64,000 bases of DNA, taken from Verrucomicrobiales bacterium. GTDB taxonomy: Bacteria; Verrucomicrobiota; Verrucomicrobiia; Verrucomicrobiales; DEV007. Where the stretch lies: NCBI GenBank assembly GCA_024638765.1, contig JAHEJT010000005.1, positions 1 to 64,000 of the forward strand, read 5' to 3'. Below, piece after piece: positions 24,293-63,329 of this stretch. Both the position numbers and the translations under genes were made by a program. The notes under the pieces are model-generated. The model saw only the letters and a list, made by a program, of their open reading frames with translations, had not been told where the DNA came from and made no database searches. Each line of letters starts with the position of its first letter. The stretch's first letter is position 1.

Positions 24293-25858
24293 TGCGACGC
24301 CGGTCGCATCCGCCCAGGCGTGCCACTTTCGGGTGAGTTCGGTTACGAGCTCGGGGTGCCGGGCGGCGAGATCGTGAGCCTCGGTGCGGTCGGCAATGAG
24401 ATCGTAAAGTTCCCATGTCTTTGCATGCTTGTCCCAAGCGAGTTTCCAATTGTCTTTTCGCGCAGCGCGGTTCGTCGACCAATGCCAAAATAAATACTCA
24501 TGAGGCACGCGTTTCTTGCCCTGAAAAACAGGCAAGAGAGATTTGCCTTCCAGCGGGAGGGTATCCTCGCCGAATTCGGGATGGGCCGCCGGGTAATCCG
24601 CGCCGGCGATATCGAGGAACGTGGGGAGGAAGTCAATGATATGGCCCACCTGGTCGGCGCGCGTGCCGGGAGTGATGGTCGCCGGCCAGCGCGCGACCAT
24701 GGGGGTGGCGATGCCACCCTCGTGACAGTACTGTTTGTAGCGCCGGAAAGGCGTGTTCGACGCGGTGGCCCAGCCCGGGCCGACATGGCTGTAATACTCG
24801 CGCGGGCCGGGGACCTGCGAGGGATCGTCGCCGCCGGGAGTCTCCGCGCAGCCGCCGTTGTCGGCGAGGAAGATCACGAGCGTGTTCTCCGCAATGTCGA
24901 GTGCATCAAGGACGTCGAGGATTCTGCCGATGTTCTGGTCCATGGAATCGATCATGGCGGCGTAAACTTCCATCCGGAGATTCTGCCATTCTTCATCGAG
25001 GGTTTTGGCCTGGTCCCAGGCCTCGGCGAGGTCATCGCGCTCGATGACTTCCCAATCAGCCTTGGCGAGACCGAGTTCGCGTTGTCGGGCGAGCCGCTGC
25101 TGTCGCAGGGCGTCCCAGCCTTCGGCGTAACGTCCCTTGTATTTGGTGATGTCTTCGGGCTTTGCGTGAAGCGGGTAATGCGGAGCGGTGTAGGGGATGT
25201 AGTGGAAAAAAGGCTGGGCCTTTTTTCCCGCCTCAAGTTTCAAGTTTTCAGTTTCAAGGTGCTCCCGGATCGTTTCGATGGCGTGATCGGTGAACGCGTC
25301 GGTGGTGTAATAATCATCGGGGAAGTCGTCGAACTCGAGAAAGACGTCGTTGTGACCGAAGGGACGGACCCTGCCGCCTTTAAATTTAGGATCCGGGATC
25401 TTGGGATTAAAGAAATTACAGCACCCGTCCCATAGTCCGTAGGCTTCGTCGAAGCCGCGGTCGTAGGGACGGGTGCCCTCGGTTTTCCCGTTGTGCCATT
25501 TGCCGGACATGCCGGTGGCATATCCGGCGTGTCGCATGGCTTCGCCGAGCGTGAGCATATTTTTCTGGATGAGTTCGTGCTGCCCCCGTCCGCCGTTGCG
25601 TGGATAAAGGCCGGTGAGCAGGGAGGCGCGGGTGGTGGTGCACTTGGCGTTATTGTAAAACTGGGTGAAGAGGATGCCTTCGGCGGCGATCCGATCGATG
25701 TTGGGAGTCTCGATTTCGCCGCCGTAACAGCCGAGATCCGACCAGCCCATGTCGTCGGCCATGATCAAAACCACGTTTGGCCGCGGTGCGGCCCAAGTGG
25801 GAAAGTGGGAAAGCGGGAAGGCGAAAAGCAGGACTAGAAAGACGTTGAGGGATTTCAT
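24275..25858 (-). CDS. Secreted arylsulfatase-family enzyme
   Basis: The 527-residue protein has a signal peptide (about 1-24) and a type I sulfatase domain. Metal site: ADDMGWSD with Asp35/Asp36. Formylglycine site: CTTTRASLLTG with Cys73, a variant of C-x-P/A/S-x-R with Thr in the third place. Also seen: SGKWHNG, PFFHYIPYTAPHYPLHA, and FLADNGG. It should hydrolyse sulfate esters on polysaccharides in the periplasm after modification by a formylglycine-generating enzyme, not present here. Two oddities: a heptamer repeat is translated in frame (around bases 25233-25258), and the C-terminal end and stop come from another repeat. Confidence 0.93.
   Translation of the reverse strand: MKSLNVFLVLLFAFPLSHFPTWAAPRPNVVLIMADDMGWSDLGCYGGEIETPNIDRIAAEGILFTQFYNNAKCTTTRASLLTGLYPRNGGRGQHELIQKNMLTLGEAMRHAGYATGMSGKWHNGKTEGTRPYDRGFDEAYGLWDGCCNFFNPKIPDPKFKGGRVRPFGHNDVFLEFDDFPDDYYTTDAFTDHAIETIREHLETENLKLEAGKKAQPFFHYIPYTAPHYPLHAKPEDITKYKGRYAEGWDALRQQRLARQRELGLAKADWEVIERDDLAEAWDQAKTLDEEWQNLRMEVYAAMIDSMDQNIGRILDVLDALDIAENTLVIFLADNGGCAETPGGDDPSQVPGPREYYSHVGPGWATASNTPFRRYKQYCHEGGIATPMVARWPATITPGTRADQVGHIIDFLPTFLDIAGADYPAAHPEFGEDTLPLEGKSLLPVFQGKKRVPHEYLFWHWSTNRAARKDNWKLAWDKHAKTWELYDLIADRTEAHDLAARHPELVTELTRKWHAWADATGVAVKSKR
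25233..25258 (-). repeat. Heptamer array inside the sulfatase coding sequence
   Basis: On the plus strand the words GTTTCAA, GTTTTCA, GTTTCAA follow each other with a seven-base period. They are the same words as in the arms around 35389-35813. In the sulfatase frame they encode about ten residues (LETENLKLEA) just before the conserved PFFHYIPY segment. Confidence 0.8.
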
Positions 25859-31032: not shown

Positions 31033-31130
31033 AGTTTCAAGTTTCAAGTTTAAAGTTTATCTCGCTGGCGCGAGCTCTGCAATCAGGCTCCGCCAGAATG
31101 TGAGCGCTAACGCGCCATGGCAGTCAAGTA
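31033..31130. repeat. Heptamer array (GTTTCAA type) with an adjoining core repeat
   Basis: Bases 31033-31058 read GTTTCAA, GTTTCAA, GTTTAAA with a strict seven-base period. The following segment (about 31070-31125) contains CTCTGCAATCAGGCTCCGCC and ends near GGCAGT. It resembles cores at 33078-33136 and 60530-60590, which have different outer arms. No matching right-hand heptamer arm is seen here. Confidence 0.6.
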
Positions 31131-34162: not shown

Positions 34163-35368
34163 ATGTCAAAATCCTACATTTTCTCCTCTGAATCCGTGAC
34201 CGAGGGGCATCCCGACAAGGTTGCCGACACCATCAGTGATTTCGTGGTCGATGCCTGTTTTGAAGACGACAAGCATAGCCGGGTGGCCTGCGAGACCATG
34301 GTCAAAGACAATATGGTGATCCTCGCGGGAGAGATCACCACCAACAGCGATTTCAATTACCAGACCATCTGCCGGCGGGCGATTAAAGACATCGGATACG
34401 TGCACGACGACTGCACCTTTCATGCCGATCGGTTCGTGTTCATCAACGGGTTGGGGCAGCAATCTCAGGACATTGCGCAGGGAGTGGACGCGGAAGCCGC
34501 CGAGGGGAAAGACACGGCGGAACAGGGTGCAGGGGACCAGGGTTTGATGTTCGGATATGCCTGCAAAGAAACCCCCGAGCTCATGCCGGCGCCCATCGTA
34601 TACGCGCACCAGCTCGGCCGCGAAGTGACGCGTGTGCGTAAAGCGGGCGAGATCGACTGGCTGCGCCCGGATTCAAAGACGCAGGTGTCGGTGCAGTACG
34701 TGGACGACAAGCCGGTGCGCATCAGTGCAATCGTGATTTCGACGCAGCACAGCGAAGATGTCTCCCACCAGGAGATCAAGGAGGCCATGACCGAACAGGT
34801 AATCCGGAAAATATTGCCGCAGGACAAGATCGATAACGACACGGAGATGCATATCAATCCGACGGGTCGATTTGTGATCGGCGGTCCGCAGGGCGATTGC
34901 GGGCTTACGGGCAGAAAGATCATTGTCGATACCTACGGAGGGATGGGCCGTCACGGCGGAGGCGCCTTTTCCGGGAAGGATCCCAGCAAGGTCGATCGCT
35001 CGGCCACCTACATGTGCCGCTGGGTTGCCAAGAACATCGTGGCGGCGGATCTCGCGGATAAATGCGAACTCCAGGTCGCCTACGCCATCGGTTATCCCAA
35101 TCCGGTGAGCATCAGCGTGAATACTTTCGGCACCAACAAGGTGGATGATTCCGCGATTGTGGATGCGGTCAAGCAGGTCTTTTCTTTCAAGCCGGCCGAC
35201 ATCGTCACGCAACTTGATCTGATGCGCCCGATTTACAAGTTCACCACGAATTACGGGCACTTCGGCCGGGAAGACAATCTCGATGCCCTTACCTGGGAGA
35301 AAAAGGACAAGGTCGATGCGTTGAAGGCGGCGGCTAAATCGGGGAAGAGCGTGGCGGTTGGTTCCTGA
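34163..35368 (+). CDS. metK: S-adenosylmethionine synthetase
   Basis: MetK makes S-adenosylmethionine from methionine and ATP. The 401-residue protein has [14 protein letters not shown] (residues 9-22), [26 protein letters not shown], the active-site stretch [20 protein letters not shown], and [16 protein letters not shown]. All are standard motifs, and the length is close to the typical 385-400. It is the first gene of a metK-ahcY unit, interrupted by a small cassette, and divergent from the sahR-like regulator. No SAM riboswitch fits in the 63-bp leader. Confidence 0.97.
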
Positions 35369-35388: not shown

Positions 35389-35813
35389 AGTTTCAAGTTT
35401 CCAGTTCCAAGGAGGAGATCAATACGGTGGCTTATCAATCGTTCGAAGATCTTCAAGTATGGCAGCGCAGTTGCGACTTGACGGTCGAAATCTGTCAGGA
35501 ACTGGAAGACTGCAGGAACTACACTTCTAGAGATCAGATGCAACGTGCGGCACTATCGGTTCCATCGAACATTGCTGAGGGCTCGGAGCGAGACAGCAAA
35601 GGAGATTTTATTCGATTTCTGCGAATTGCCAAAGGCTCGGCCGGGGAGCTGCGCACCCAGGCGTACATCGCAAAGCGTCTCAACTTAATCTCATCCGGCA
35701 AGGCCGATTCCTACGTAAAGGAAACAAAGGAAATCGGCGCGATGCTGCAGGGGCTGATCCGCTCCATGCAATCCTCAACTTGAAACTGAAAACTGAAAAC
35801 TTGAAACTTTAAT
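35389..35813. mobile_element. Four-helix-bundle gene cassette with inverted heptamer arms
   Basis: The left arm (35389-35410: GTTTCAA, GTTTCCA, GTTCCAA) and the right arm (35776-35813), read inverted as GTTTCAA, GTTTTCA, GTTTTCA, GTTTCAA, bracket a single small gene. Positions 35389-35406 and 35792-35809 match at 17 of 18 bases when inverted. The unit lies between metK and ahcY. No target-site duplication is obvious and no transposase is present. A mobile origin is inferred. Confidence 0.65.
35427..35783 (+). CDS. Four-helix-bundle protein (23S rRNA intervening-sequence protein family)
   Basis: From the GTG at 35427 the protein is 118 residues. It matches the family by FEDLQVWQRS at the start, LSVPSNIAEG in the middle and FLRIAKGSAGELRTQ. 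Homologues form pentameric four-helix bundles and were first found inside 23S rRNA intervening sequences; they also occur in scattered single-gene insertions. AAGGAGG, 11 bases before the GTG, is one of the best Shine-Dalgarno sites in the window. A start at 35358 would overlap metK and is rejected. The TGA stop lies within the right heptamer arm. Confidence 0.88.
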   Translation: MAYQSFEDLQVWQRSCDLTVEICQELEDCRNYTSRDQMQRAALSVPSNIAEGSERDSKGDFIRFLRIAKGSAGELRTQAYIAKRLNLISSGKADSYVKETKEIGAMLQGLIRSMQSST

Positions 35814-35816
35814 ACT

Positions 35817-37256
35817 ATGAGCACAGCGACAACCACAGAAGGACAGGATTTTAAGATCAAAGACATTGCCCTTGCGGAATTCGGCCGCAAGGAAATCGGT
35901 ATTGCCGAACAGGAAATGCCGGGATTGATGTCGGTGCGCGAGAAATACGCGGCGGAAAAACCGCTCCAGGGGGTCCGCATCATGGGCTCGCTGCACATGA
36001 CGATCCAGACGGCGGTGCTCATTGAGAGCTTGAAGGACCTCGGCGCGGATGTGCGCTGGGCCTCCTGCAACATTTTCTCGACCCAGGATCACGCGGCTGC
36101 GGCGATCGCTAAGGCGGGAGTGCCGGTTTTCGCGTGGAAAGGGGAAACCCTGGAGGAATACTGGGATTGCACCATCAGGGCGATGACCTGGCCGGACGGC
36201 AAGGGTCCGGAAATGATCGTGGACGACGGCGGGGACGCCACTCTTCTCATACACAAGGGTGTCCAGCTTGAGGATGGCAGCGACTGGGTAAACACCGAGT
36301 CCGGCAGCCACGAGGAACAGGTGATTAAAGATCTACTCAAAAAGGTTCACGCCGAAGATCCGCTGAAGTGGCACAATTACGTCAAGGATTGGAAAGGTGT
36401 TTCCGAGGAGACCACCACCGGGGTGCATCGCCTCATTGAAATGGCCGCGAGCGAGGAATTGCTGGTGCCGGCCATCAACGTGAACGACTCGGTCACGAAG
36501 AGCAAATTCGACAACCTTTACGGATGCCGTGAATCGCTGGTGGACGGCATCAAGCGCGCCACGGACGTGATGGTCGCCGGCAAGACCGCGGTCATCTGCG
36601 GGTATGGCGATGTGGGCAAGGGCTGCGTCCAGGCTTTGAAGGGGCTTGGCGCCCGGATCGTGGTAACGGAAATCGACCCCATTTGCGCGCTCCAGGCCGC
36701 GATGGAGGGTTACAAGGTGACGACCGTGGAGGAAACCCTCGGAGAAGGGGACATTTACGTCACCACGACCGGCAACAAGGACATCATCACGGCGGAACAC
36801 ATGTCGAAGATGAAAGACCAGGCGATCGTCTGCAACATCGGCCATTTCGACAACGAGATCCAGGTCGACAAGCTCGACAACTTTCCCGGGATCAAAGTGG
36901 AAGAGATCAAGCCGGAAGCCGAAGGCTCCGTGGACCGGTACACCTTCCCCGGCGGCAACGCGATTTACATGCTCGCCAAGGGCCGCCTCGTCAATCTCGG
37001 CTGTGCGACAGGGCACCCGAGTTTCGTGATGTCGAACAGCTTTGCCAACCAGGTGCTTGCGCAGATCGATCTCTGGGCGAACAAGGAAACCTACGTCCCC
37101 GGCGTTTACCTGCTTTCGAAGAAACTCGACGAGGAAGTGGCGCGGCTGCACCTCGAAAAAATCGGCGTCGTGCTCACGGAGTTGAGCGCAGAGCAGGCTG
37201 AATACATTGGCGTGCCGGTCGAAGGGCCTTACAAGCCGGATACTTACCGGTATTGA
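35817..37256 (+). CDS. ahcY: Adenosylhomocysteinase
   Basis: The enzyme splits S-adenosylhomocysteine to homocysteine and adenosine, removing the product that inhibits methyltransferases. The 479-residue protein has [33 protein letters not shown], the long internal insertion typical of bacterial enzymes (about 150-190), the NAD-binding loop [10 protein letters not shown] and NIGHFDNEI. It follows metK in the same direction, with a cassette between them. A strong terminator lies downstream. With metK and the divergent regulator it forms a SAM-cycle unit. Confidence 0.97.
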
Positions 37257-55642: not shown

Positions 55643-56111
55643 AACCGCGAAAGACGCTAAAGAAGCGAAAATTCAGATTCTTCCTTTGGATTTGATGTCC
55701 GGACAATTCGCTCCCATTCCACTTGGGGGTGATGCCCAAAATTTACGAGAAGGCCGAGCTGAAAATTGCCTGCCTTCAGGTAGTTGAAAAGTTGGGCCCG
55801 ATGTTCGTCCAAGAGCTTCTTCACCGCCTTTAATTCGACGACAATCTTCCCGAAACAAACAAAGTCAGGTTCGAACTTCTTTTTGAGGGTGACACCCTTA
55901 TACGCAATGTCCAGATGGGGCTTGGGTATGGCTGGAATGTCCTGATACCCGAATTCCATTTCCAAAGATTCCTGGTATACCTCTTCCACAAATCCGCACC
56001 CTTCTTCCTTGTACACCTCAAAGCACGCCCCCATAATCCGGTAGCTCTCGTCTTTAAAAAGAATCTCCTCCCCCTTTTCCATTTTTCGCTTCTTTCGCGT
56101 TTTTCGCGGTT
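55643..56111. mobile_element. GxxExxY gene cassette with 29-bp inverted nonamer arms
   Basis: Bases 55643-55671 and the inverse of 56083-56111 match at 27 of 29 positions. Both arms are made of nonamers: AACCGCGAA, AAACGCGAA or AGACGCTAA, then AGAAGCGAA. The enclosed gene starts on the base after the right arm and stops inside the left arm. The cassette fills the leuC-leuD spacer (12 bp to the leuC stop, 11 bp to the leuD start). No target duplication or transposase is seen. Confidence 0.75.
55657..56082 (-). CDS. GxxExxY protein (PD-(D/E)xK nuclease-like)
   Basis: The 141-residue protein has the signature Gly30-x-x-Glu33-x-x-Tyr36 and a PD-(D/E)xK-type core with Asp73 in EPDF and Glu83/Lys85 in VELK. 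GxxExxY proteins are a small family related to PD-(D/E)xK nucleases; the biological role is unknown. Active-site residues look intact here. The start codon directly follows the right inverted arm, and the TAG stop lies inside the left arm. It sits between leuC and leuD in the same direction and is thought to be a mobile gene. Confidence 0.9.
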   Translation of the reverse strand: MEKGEEILFKDESYRIMGACFEVYKEEGCGFVEEVYQESLEMEFGYQDIPAIPKPHLDIAYKGVTLKKKFEPDFVCFGKIVVELKAVKKLLDEHRAQLFNYLKAGNFQLGLLVNFGHHPQVEWERIVRTSNPKEESEFSLL

Positions 56112-63157: not shown

Positions 63158-63170
63158 GCGAGTTGTGGAG

Positions 63171-63329
63171 GTATCAGGTATCAGGTATCAGGAAGACACA
63201 GCCCGGGAATATAATCCCGTTTCCTGTCCGTGCACATCGATTAATGAAGCGGCGGGCGGTCTCTGCCACCCCGGATCTCCCAGCAGTCGCCGCCTATCTC
63301 TGCCGGATACCCGTTACTCCGATACCTGA
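63171..63329. repeat. Heptamer repeat with inverted arms (GTATCAG type)
   Basis: The left arm (63171-63192) has three GTATCAG words in tandem. The right arm, read on the minus strand, has GTATCGG and GGTATCC, more decayed. It lies between the RDD gene start and the end of the permease gene. Confidence 0.6.

Follow-up and report, generated by a model that had tools for sequence, protein, structure and literature searches.

Nearly every copy of the four-helix-bundle gene family PF05635 is packaged between inverted arrays of its own private word of 7-8 nt. We describe one such package in a stretch of 64,000 nucleotides from a Verrucomicrobiales bacterium (hereafter the window), and the rule holds for most other copies in the genome of this bacterium, for its phylum and for a set of loci from many other phyla. 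What is new is that an element of the intervening sequence (IVS) type lies outside rRNA and is bounded on either side by an array of a 7-8-nt word private to the copy. In the open-access literature we found no report that joins heptamer repeats to an IVS-type gene or that states the private-word rule.

PF05635 proteins are usually annotated just as "four helix bundle protein" and to our knowledge no function of the family is known outside rRNA intervening sequences. The private-word rule gives this family ends, a likely binding site, as we predict, and a role that can be tested. It further suggests why bacterial genomes may be so rich in heptamer repeats, an excess for which polymerase slippage has been held responsible so far. 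We offer this explanation because in a small sample arrays were seen only in genomes which carry the gene and because in the window's genome these arrays reuse the gene's own words.

The cassette between metK and ahcY

The cassette and its surroundings have the following features.

34163..35368, plus strand: metK, the upstream host gene, an open reading frame that served as tblastn query
35389..35809, about 420 bp in the gap between metK and ahcY: the cassette, a PF05635 gene between inverted arrays of the word GTTTCAA
35389..35411, plus strand: 5' arm, about three heptamer units (GTTTCAA, GTTTCCA, GTTCCAA), reading AGTTTCAAGTTTCCAGTTCCAAG
35410..35415, plus strand: Shine-Dalgarno sequence AGGAGG, read directly, overlapping the last unit of the 5' arm
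35427..35783, plus strand: IVP (four-helix-bundle) gene, GTG start, 118 aa, TGA stop at 35781-35783
35777..35809, minus strand: 3' arm, GTTTCAA GTTTTCA GTTTTCA GTTTCAA on the minus strand, reading AAGTTTCAAGTTTTCAGTTTTCAGTTTCAAGTT
35817..37256, plus strand: ahcY, the downstream host gene, in the same direction as metK and the IVP gene

A first-pass annotation, made from the letters of the window, had described a small gene with a Shine-Dalgarno sequence between inverted heptamer arrays and with its stop codon in an arm. The coordinates confirm this description: the TGA stop falls within the 3' arm, and from the end of this arm to the start codon of ahcY there are 7 nt. The same annotation took the whole for a cassette that has a single gene and inverted arms of short words and that was inserted in the direction of the operon. 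This reading is supported, and metK, the IVP gene and ahcY indeed all lie on the plus strand. In their best-matching stretch the arms pair at 17 of 18 positions (35389-35406 with 35791-35808). As arm score we used the alignment of the upstream flank with the reverse complement of the downstream flank; by chance a score of at least 14 is reached in 8 of 300 random intervals of the same genome. One-sided GTTTCAA arrays are also present elsewhere in the window, at 25233-25258 and 31033-31058. Thus, the word alone is not unique to the cassette, but the inverted pair around a gene is. Single GTTTCAA arrays can lie within long and apparently unbroken open reading frames, namely of 557 aa on the minus strand for the array at 25233-25258 and of 720 aa for an array at 1489-1519 of contig locus L024.

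The encoded protein belongs to the family by three models, scoring 117.2 bits against PF05635 (cut-off 33.8), 116.2 bits against TIGR02436 (cut-off 24) and 152.7 bits against NF008912 (cut-off 124). None of the PADLOC defence models matched it, and among the open reading frames of the cassette there is neither a transposase nor a reverse transcriptase.

Inverted arrays as a rule of the gene family

We compared the score of each copy with a null distribution obtained by swapping arms between copies. The window's genome (5.4 Mb in 309 contigs, 93% complete) has 16 PF05635 matches. Fourteen of them score 15-36 with their own partner, as against a mean of 11.3 with foreign partners, and their words differ at nearly every copy (GGAAGAT, CGTTAAT, GTTATCA, GTGTTCA, GGATGAA and others). 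The two armless copies, L014 and L015, both with a score of 9, seem to belong to another subfamily. Together with 70 further copies from the phylum, taken as the best-scoring ones and not as a random draw, the set comprises 86 copies; 67 of these exceed the 95th and 56 the 99th percentile of the swaps, L065 and L069 being one orthologous site. Of 71 armed loci, 62 have 7 as their best period and 6 have 8, and within the aligned arms the identity at lag 7 is 0.58 versus about 0.25-0.3 at other lags, 14 excepted. When the consensus word of one arm is set against that of its partner, 32 of 56 loci match at 6 or more of the 7 letters, as against 2.7% of random pairs.

A far set of 80 loci was drawn from Bacteroidetes, Alpha-, Beta- and Gammaproteobacteria, Firmicutes, Planctomycetes, Cyanobacteria, Acidobacteria, candidate phyla and more. 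One locus was too short, and of the remaining 79 loci 65 lie above the 95th percentile of the swaps. Here the period is 7 in 47 loci, 8 in 17 and another in 2, with 13 loci having no arm (66 armed). For validation we took 40 further loci from 30 of the far-set genomes, and 38 of them score at least 15; as L379 is the same locus as L331, this set holds 39 new loci. In the genus g19, 28 of 29 loci score at least 16. We kept these loci out of the main counts because many of their arms mix words with palindromes. In L182, L184, L188-L192, L196, L200 and L202-L204 the word ATATCGT, TTCTTCA or CTTTCAC alternates with private palindromes, many of which have GCAG loops. The absence of arms from other copies of the family, which the first-pass annotation had named as speaking against its reading, is therefore not what we observe: arms are present in the own genome and in the phylum, far and validation sets.

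Composition and polarity of the arms

The strand that runs inward has more G than C in 49 loci and the reverse in 2. The dinucleotide AG is present in 91 of 112 arm words, where 65 would be expected after shuffling of the letters, and in the far, own plus phylum and validation sets it is the dinucleotide most often chained at a spacing of 7-8 nt. Chains of at least four AG are found in 69% of the 158 arms of the far set, in 52% of the 172 arms of the own plus phylum set and in 50% of the 80 arms of the validation set, control spacings giving 3-7%. Words without AG do exist, for instance at L362, L365 and L368. Five is the most frequent chain length in the far set (24 of 79 arms upstream, 32 of 79 downstream); the 40 validation loci do not show this peak and in the phylum set the distribution is broad. 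Avd is pentameric, and the relatives with PDB entries, 2gsc and 2rld, have five chains each. A peak at five would suit a pentamer, but as it does not recur we do not rely on it. The idea that each of five subunits has its own AG unit looked striking in the 79 far loci but was not repeated in the next 40, and it survives only within the TRAP-like alternative weighed below.

The two arms share their word, but an order of variant units common to both was found by unit permutation in only 5 of 55 loci at the level of 5% or less. This speaks against a simple copying of one arm from the other, and in-register copying as a general rule is ruled out.

Filled and empty sites

We searched 58 genomes belonging to the same family as that of the window and located ahcY in 49 of them. 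We fetched 30 loci, and metK adjoins in 28 of them, our own included. Only 2 of the 27 relatives (L032 and L048) have a PF05635 cassette in the gap between metK and ahcY, with the words GTTTTCA/GTGTTCA; 24 gaps hold at most 168 bp and one (L033) holds an unrelated insert of 894 bp. Inspection of these spacers in relatives had been proposed in the first-pass annotation as a check, and the outcome is a patchy and not a fixed presence. The IVP proteins of the three filled gaps are the nearest relatives of each other (57-67% identity), so that one old insertion which was often lost is as likely as repeated insertions. The site may represent one old insertion lost many times and not recent movement. 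From copy to copy the words differ, and they do so in either arm. We also considered as a gene-less element an insert of about 157 bp that L027 has relative to L031, with GTTTTCAG/CTGAAAAC near its ends; it is too weak to be counted.

In the genus g19 filled and empty sites show insertion. At site 4 (8 loci) the element is present in G241, G251, G253 and G274 and absent in G269, G290, G294 (about 5 nt from stop to start) and G295. At site 2 (9 loci) six loci have the element, three in each gene orientation, and three do not. The insertion at this site is within a terminator hairpin of the host, AAGTCCGGGC...GCCCGGACTT, which is empty in G266 and G268; G285, the third locus without the element, does not have such a hairpin either. 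Site 1 gave no empty locus, as each of its 8 loci has the element or a decayed form of it. Depending on the species, this position is taken by one or the other of two element types, which differ in their words, and a decayed one is in G081. A target-site duplication could not be fixed at any of the filled and empty sites, the empty ones being too diverged, and no transposition event itself was seen. We also observed that L205, L212 and L225 on the one hand and L220, L223 and L226 on the other have opposite gene orientations at one site in related species, as if the inverted arms let the element flip.

Selection on the gene and its distribution

The IVP gene is under purifying selection. At site 1 of g19 dN/dS is 0.03-0.14 within each element type and at site 4 it is 0.07-0.30 where dS could be computed. 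Insertion in the direction of the operon, noted in the first-pass annotation for the window, holds generally: with the longest open reading frame taken as neighbour, the upstream gene is co-directional at 101 of 136 loci (p 1e-8) and the downstream gene at 106 of 136 (p 4e-11). No rRNA was detected with Rfam in 60 loci, the window locus included. One armed copy (L009, 421-1290) adjoins a run of five tRNA genes.

IVP is a widespread family among bacteria, and in the phylum 140 of 194 genomes have the gene. A reverse transcriptase of family PF00078 (RVT_1) is encoded by 59 of these 140 genomes and not by 81; of the 54 genomes without IVP, 9 have it and 45 do not. RVT_1 is hence commoner together with IVP, an association which probably reflects genome size or the load of mobile elements. 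In the own genome (93% complete, 16 IVP matches) no RVT_1 was found.

Arrays without a gene

The own genome was searched for arrays in 430 kb of its 5.4 Mb, on contigs chosen partly for holding PF05635 copies. The search returned 30 arrays of period 7 and none in the Markov control; other periods, except 14, gave 0-2. Among the arrays away from PF05635 copies 25 of 28 match an arm word of the same genome at 6 or 7 letters, whereas with an equal number of words from other genomes (500 draws) the mean was 9.4 and the maximum 19. Arrays near PF05635 copies are left out of this count, and the array at L140 12403 is just outside the limit. In six genomes without an intact PF05635 gene there was no array in 400 kb, as against 39 arrays in 766 kb of six genomes with the gene. 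The own genome contributes 31 of these in 366 kb and the other five IVP genomes 8 in 400 kb, that is, seven in G156, one in G148 and none in G179, G138 and G140 (80 kb each).

Some of the gene-free arrays of the own genome are inverted pairs with short loops and many are single. Gene-less inverted heptamer pairs with short loops, possibly relics, are located at 63169-63327 of the window and at L128 13773-13900, L142 4219-4341 and L126 12068-12225. The own genome also has a perfect CACTGAA array of 128 nt (L127, 12712-12839).

GxxExxY cassettes

The window holds a second one-gene cassette.

55643-56111, minus strand: GxxExxY (PF13366) cassette with inverted arms AACCGCGAAAGACGCTAAAGAAGCGAAAA of period about 9

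The first-pass annotation had taken this cassette and the IVP cassette for one common package and had suggested a shared route of mobilisation. Both families are indeed made up of one gene between inverted arms of short private words, and 27 of 34 GxxExxY loci lie above the 95th percentile of the swaps. However, the GxxExxY unit measures about 9 nt, longer than the 7-8 nt of IVP arms (of 29 armed loci 14 have 9 as best period), ACC is found near both outer ends in 14 of 30 GxxExxY loci versus 5 of 148 IVP loci, and GxxExxY arms have no AG chain. With its arm period of 7 and its PF05635 gene the window's IVP cassette likewise does not qualify as a GxxExxY cassette. The two families have the same style and not the same package; the claim of a common package is not borne out, and a shared route is in our view improbable.

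Possible mechanism and alternatives

We lean towards reading the cassette as a minimal IVS/S23-type insertion element with a protein that recognises the arrays at its two ends. We suggest that the encoded Avd-like protein, probably a pentamer, would bind the arrays as repeated sites, AG recurring every 7-8 nt on the inward strand in most words. The arms would then be the ends of the element. The arrays could lengthen and shorten by slippage, and exchange between the paired arms could keep one word on both sides while the word drifts. Loss of the gene would leave the arrays behind as solo arrays. In transcripts pairing of the arms around the gene would ease the cutting of the insertion out of a polycistronic RNA. 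For rRNA such cutting-out of intervening sequences has been shown by others.

A rather unlikely alternative is that the arrays are regulatory. A TRAP-like protein ring would attach to its own 5' UTR, with one AG for each subunit, and would regulate its expression, and mobility would be secondary. The AG chains at 7-8 nt spacing, far above the control spacings in all three sets, suit such a reader, as do the peak at five in the far set and the five chains of 2gsc and 2rld. But no such peak shows up in the following 40 loci, the phylum set gives only a broad one, AG is lacking altogether from some words and the mirrored downstream arm is left unexplained. It is unlikely, too, that the element acts at the level of RNA, with arms that form a transcript stem cut by RNase III as in 23S rRNA and with movement in DNA being incidental. 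The 23S rRNA IVS of Coxiella burnetii is, in the accessible text of its description, bounded by a 28-bp terminal stem which RNase III cleaves in vitro, and it has tandem GACAGAT heptamers in variable number upstream of the S23p gene (PMC4990558). Of the first-pass suggestion that the arms may fold in RNA like the stems of rRNA intervening sequences, the folding itself stands: in the predicted transcript of the cassette the arms pair and close a stem (-135.7 kcal/mol, z -1.84, 4 of 100 shuffles as good). The g19 element within the terminator hairpin at site 2 also resembles intervening sequences in the tips of rRNA helices. If pairing in RNA mattered, however, wobble pairs should be in excess among the arm mismatches, and over 65 loci there are 81 G-U versus 129 A-C mismatches (by locus 20 versus 27). 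This is slightly the reverse of an excess and thus no sign of selection for RNA pairing, which we reject, and the Rfam scan of 60 loci gave no rRNA.

It is also conceivable, if distinctly doubtful, that the words are written instead of just being copied. A machine advancing by a constant 7 or 8 nt would place one and the same freely chosen word on each of the 3' ends where the insertion takes place, much as telomeres receive templated repeats, with the IVP ring as its measuring or holding part. Such writing would fit a step that is constant while the letters are free, a word that both arms share although its variants follow no common order, the G-rich strand running inward (49 versus 2) and the solo arrays which reuse the genome's own words. 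As no RVT_1 was found in the own genome or in 81 of 140 IVP genomes, an ordinary reverse transcriptase of this kind is improbable as the writer, and on the same counts we rejected a reverse transcriptase acting in trans. If true, word writing would tie the long-known heptamer excess of bacteria to one gene family. Very improbable, and already disfavoured, is an account by ordinary arrays made by polymerase slippage next to an old, vertically inherited gene, in which the arms pair just because slippage has hot spots. An excess of heptamer repeats is known from many bacteria, and slippage has been proposed for it in the accessible parts of the reports (PMC4692102, PMC4679880); the element at site 1 of g19 is old as well, being present or decayed throughout. 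Yet slippage acting separately on each side of a gene would not yield one common word in inverted orientation, and it does not account for the fixed inward polarity and the empty sites.

Comparison with known systems

Some of the parts are known from elsewhere. The window's IVP protein is a distant homolog of the Avd accessory proteins of diversity-generating retroelements (DGRs; phrog_3206, E 1e-4), but with 21.5 bits against NF033474 it stays far below the equivalog cut-off of 80 and the genome gave no PF00078 match, so the protein does not class as a DGR Avd protein. REP palindromes tagged with GTAG/CGTC (PMC3733652) resemble some g19 arms, in which a CGTC-containing word alternates with palindromes; the arms in the window differ from them in having neither palindrome nor tag.

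Tandem heptamers have been described as a puzzle in Beggiatoaceae (TAACTGA; PMC4679880) and in Xanthomonas (GGGAATC, in convergent inverted pairs; PMC4692102). They are tandem 7-nt words as ours are, and TAACTGA is the reverse complement of an AGTTATC-type word found here. As far as the accessible text goes, these reports differ in treating one word or word type per genome; the term "four helix bundle" does not occur in the available portions of either, nor do "S23" and "23S" in that of PMC4679880.

There is also a likeness to the IVS of Coxiella burnetii, which by the accessible portion of PMC4990558 shares the protein family by name, the terminal inverted repeats around one small gene, the heptamers and a similar size (428 nt). 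That portion describes heptamers in one species only, and the private-word rule, solo arrays and intergenic copies do not figure in it. The cassette of the window thus has an S23p gene enclosed by terminal inverted repeats, just as a 23S rRNA intervening sequence has, but it is located between protein genes instead of in the 23S rRNA gene.
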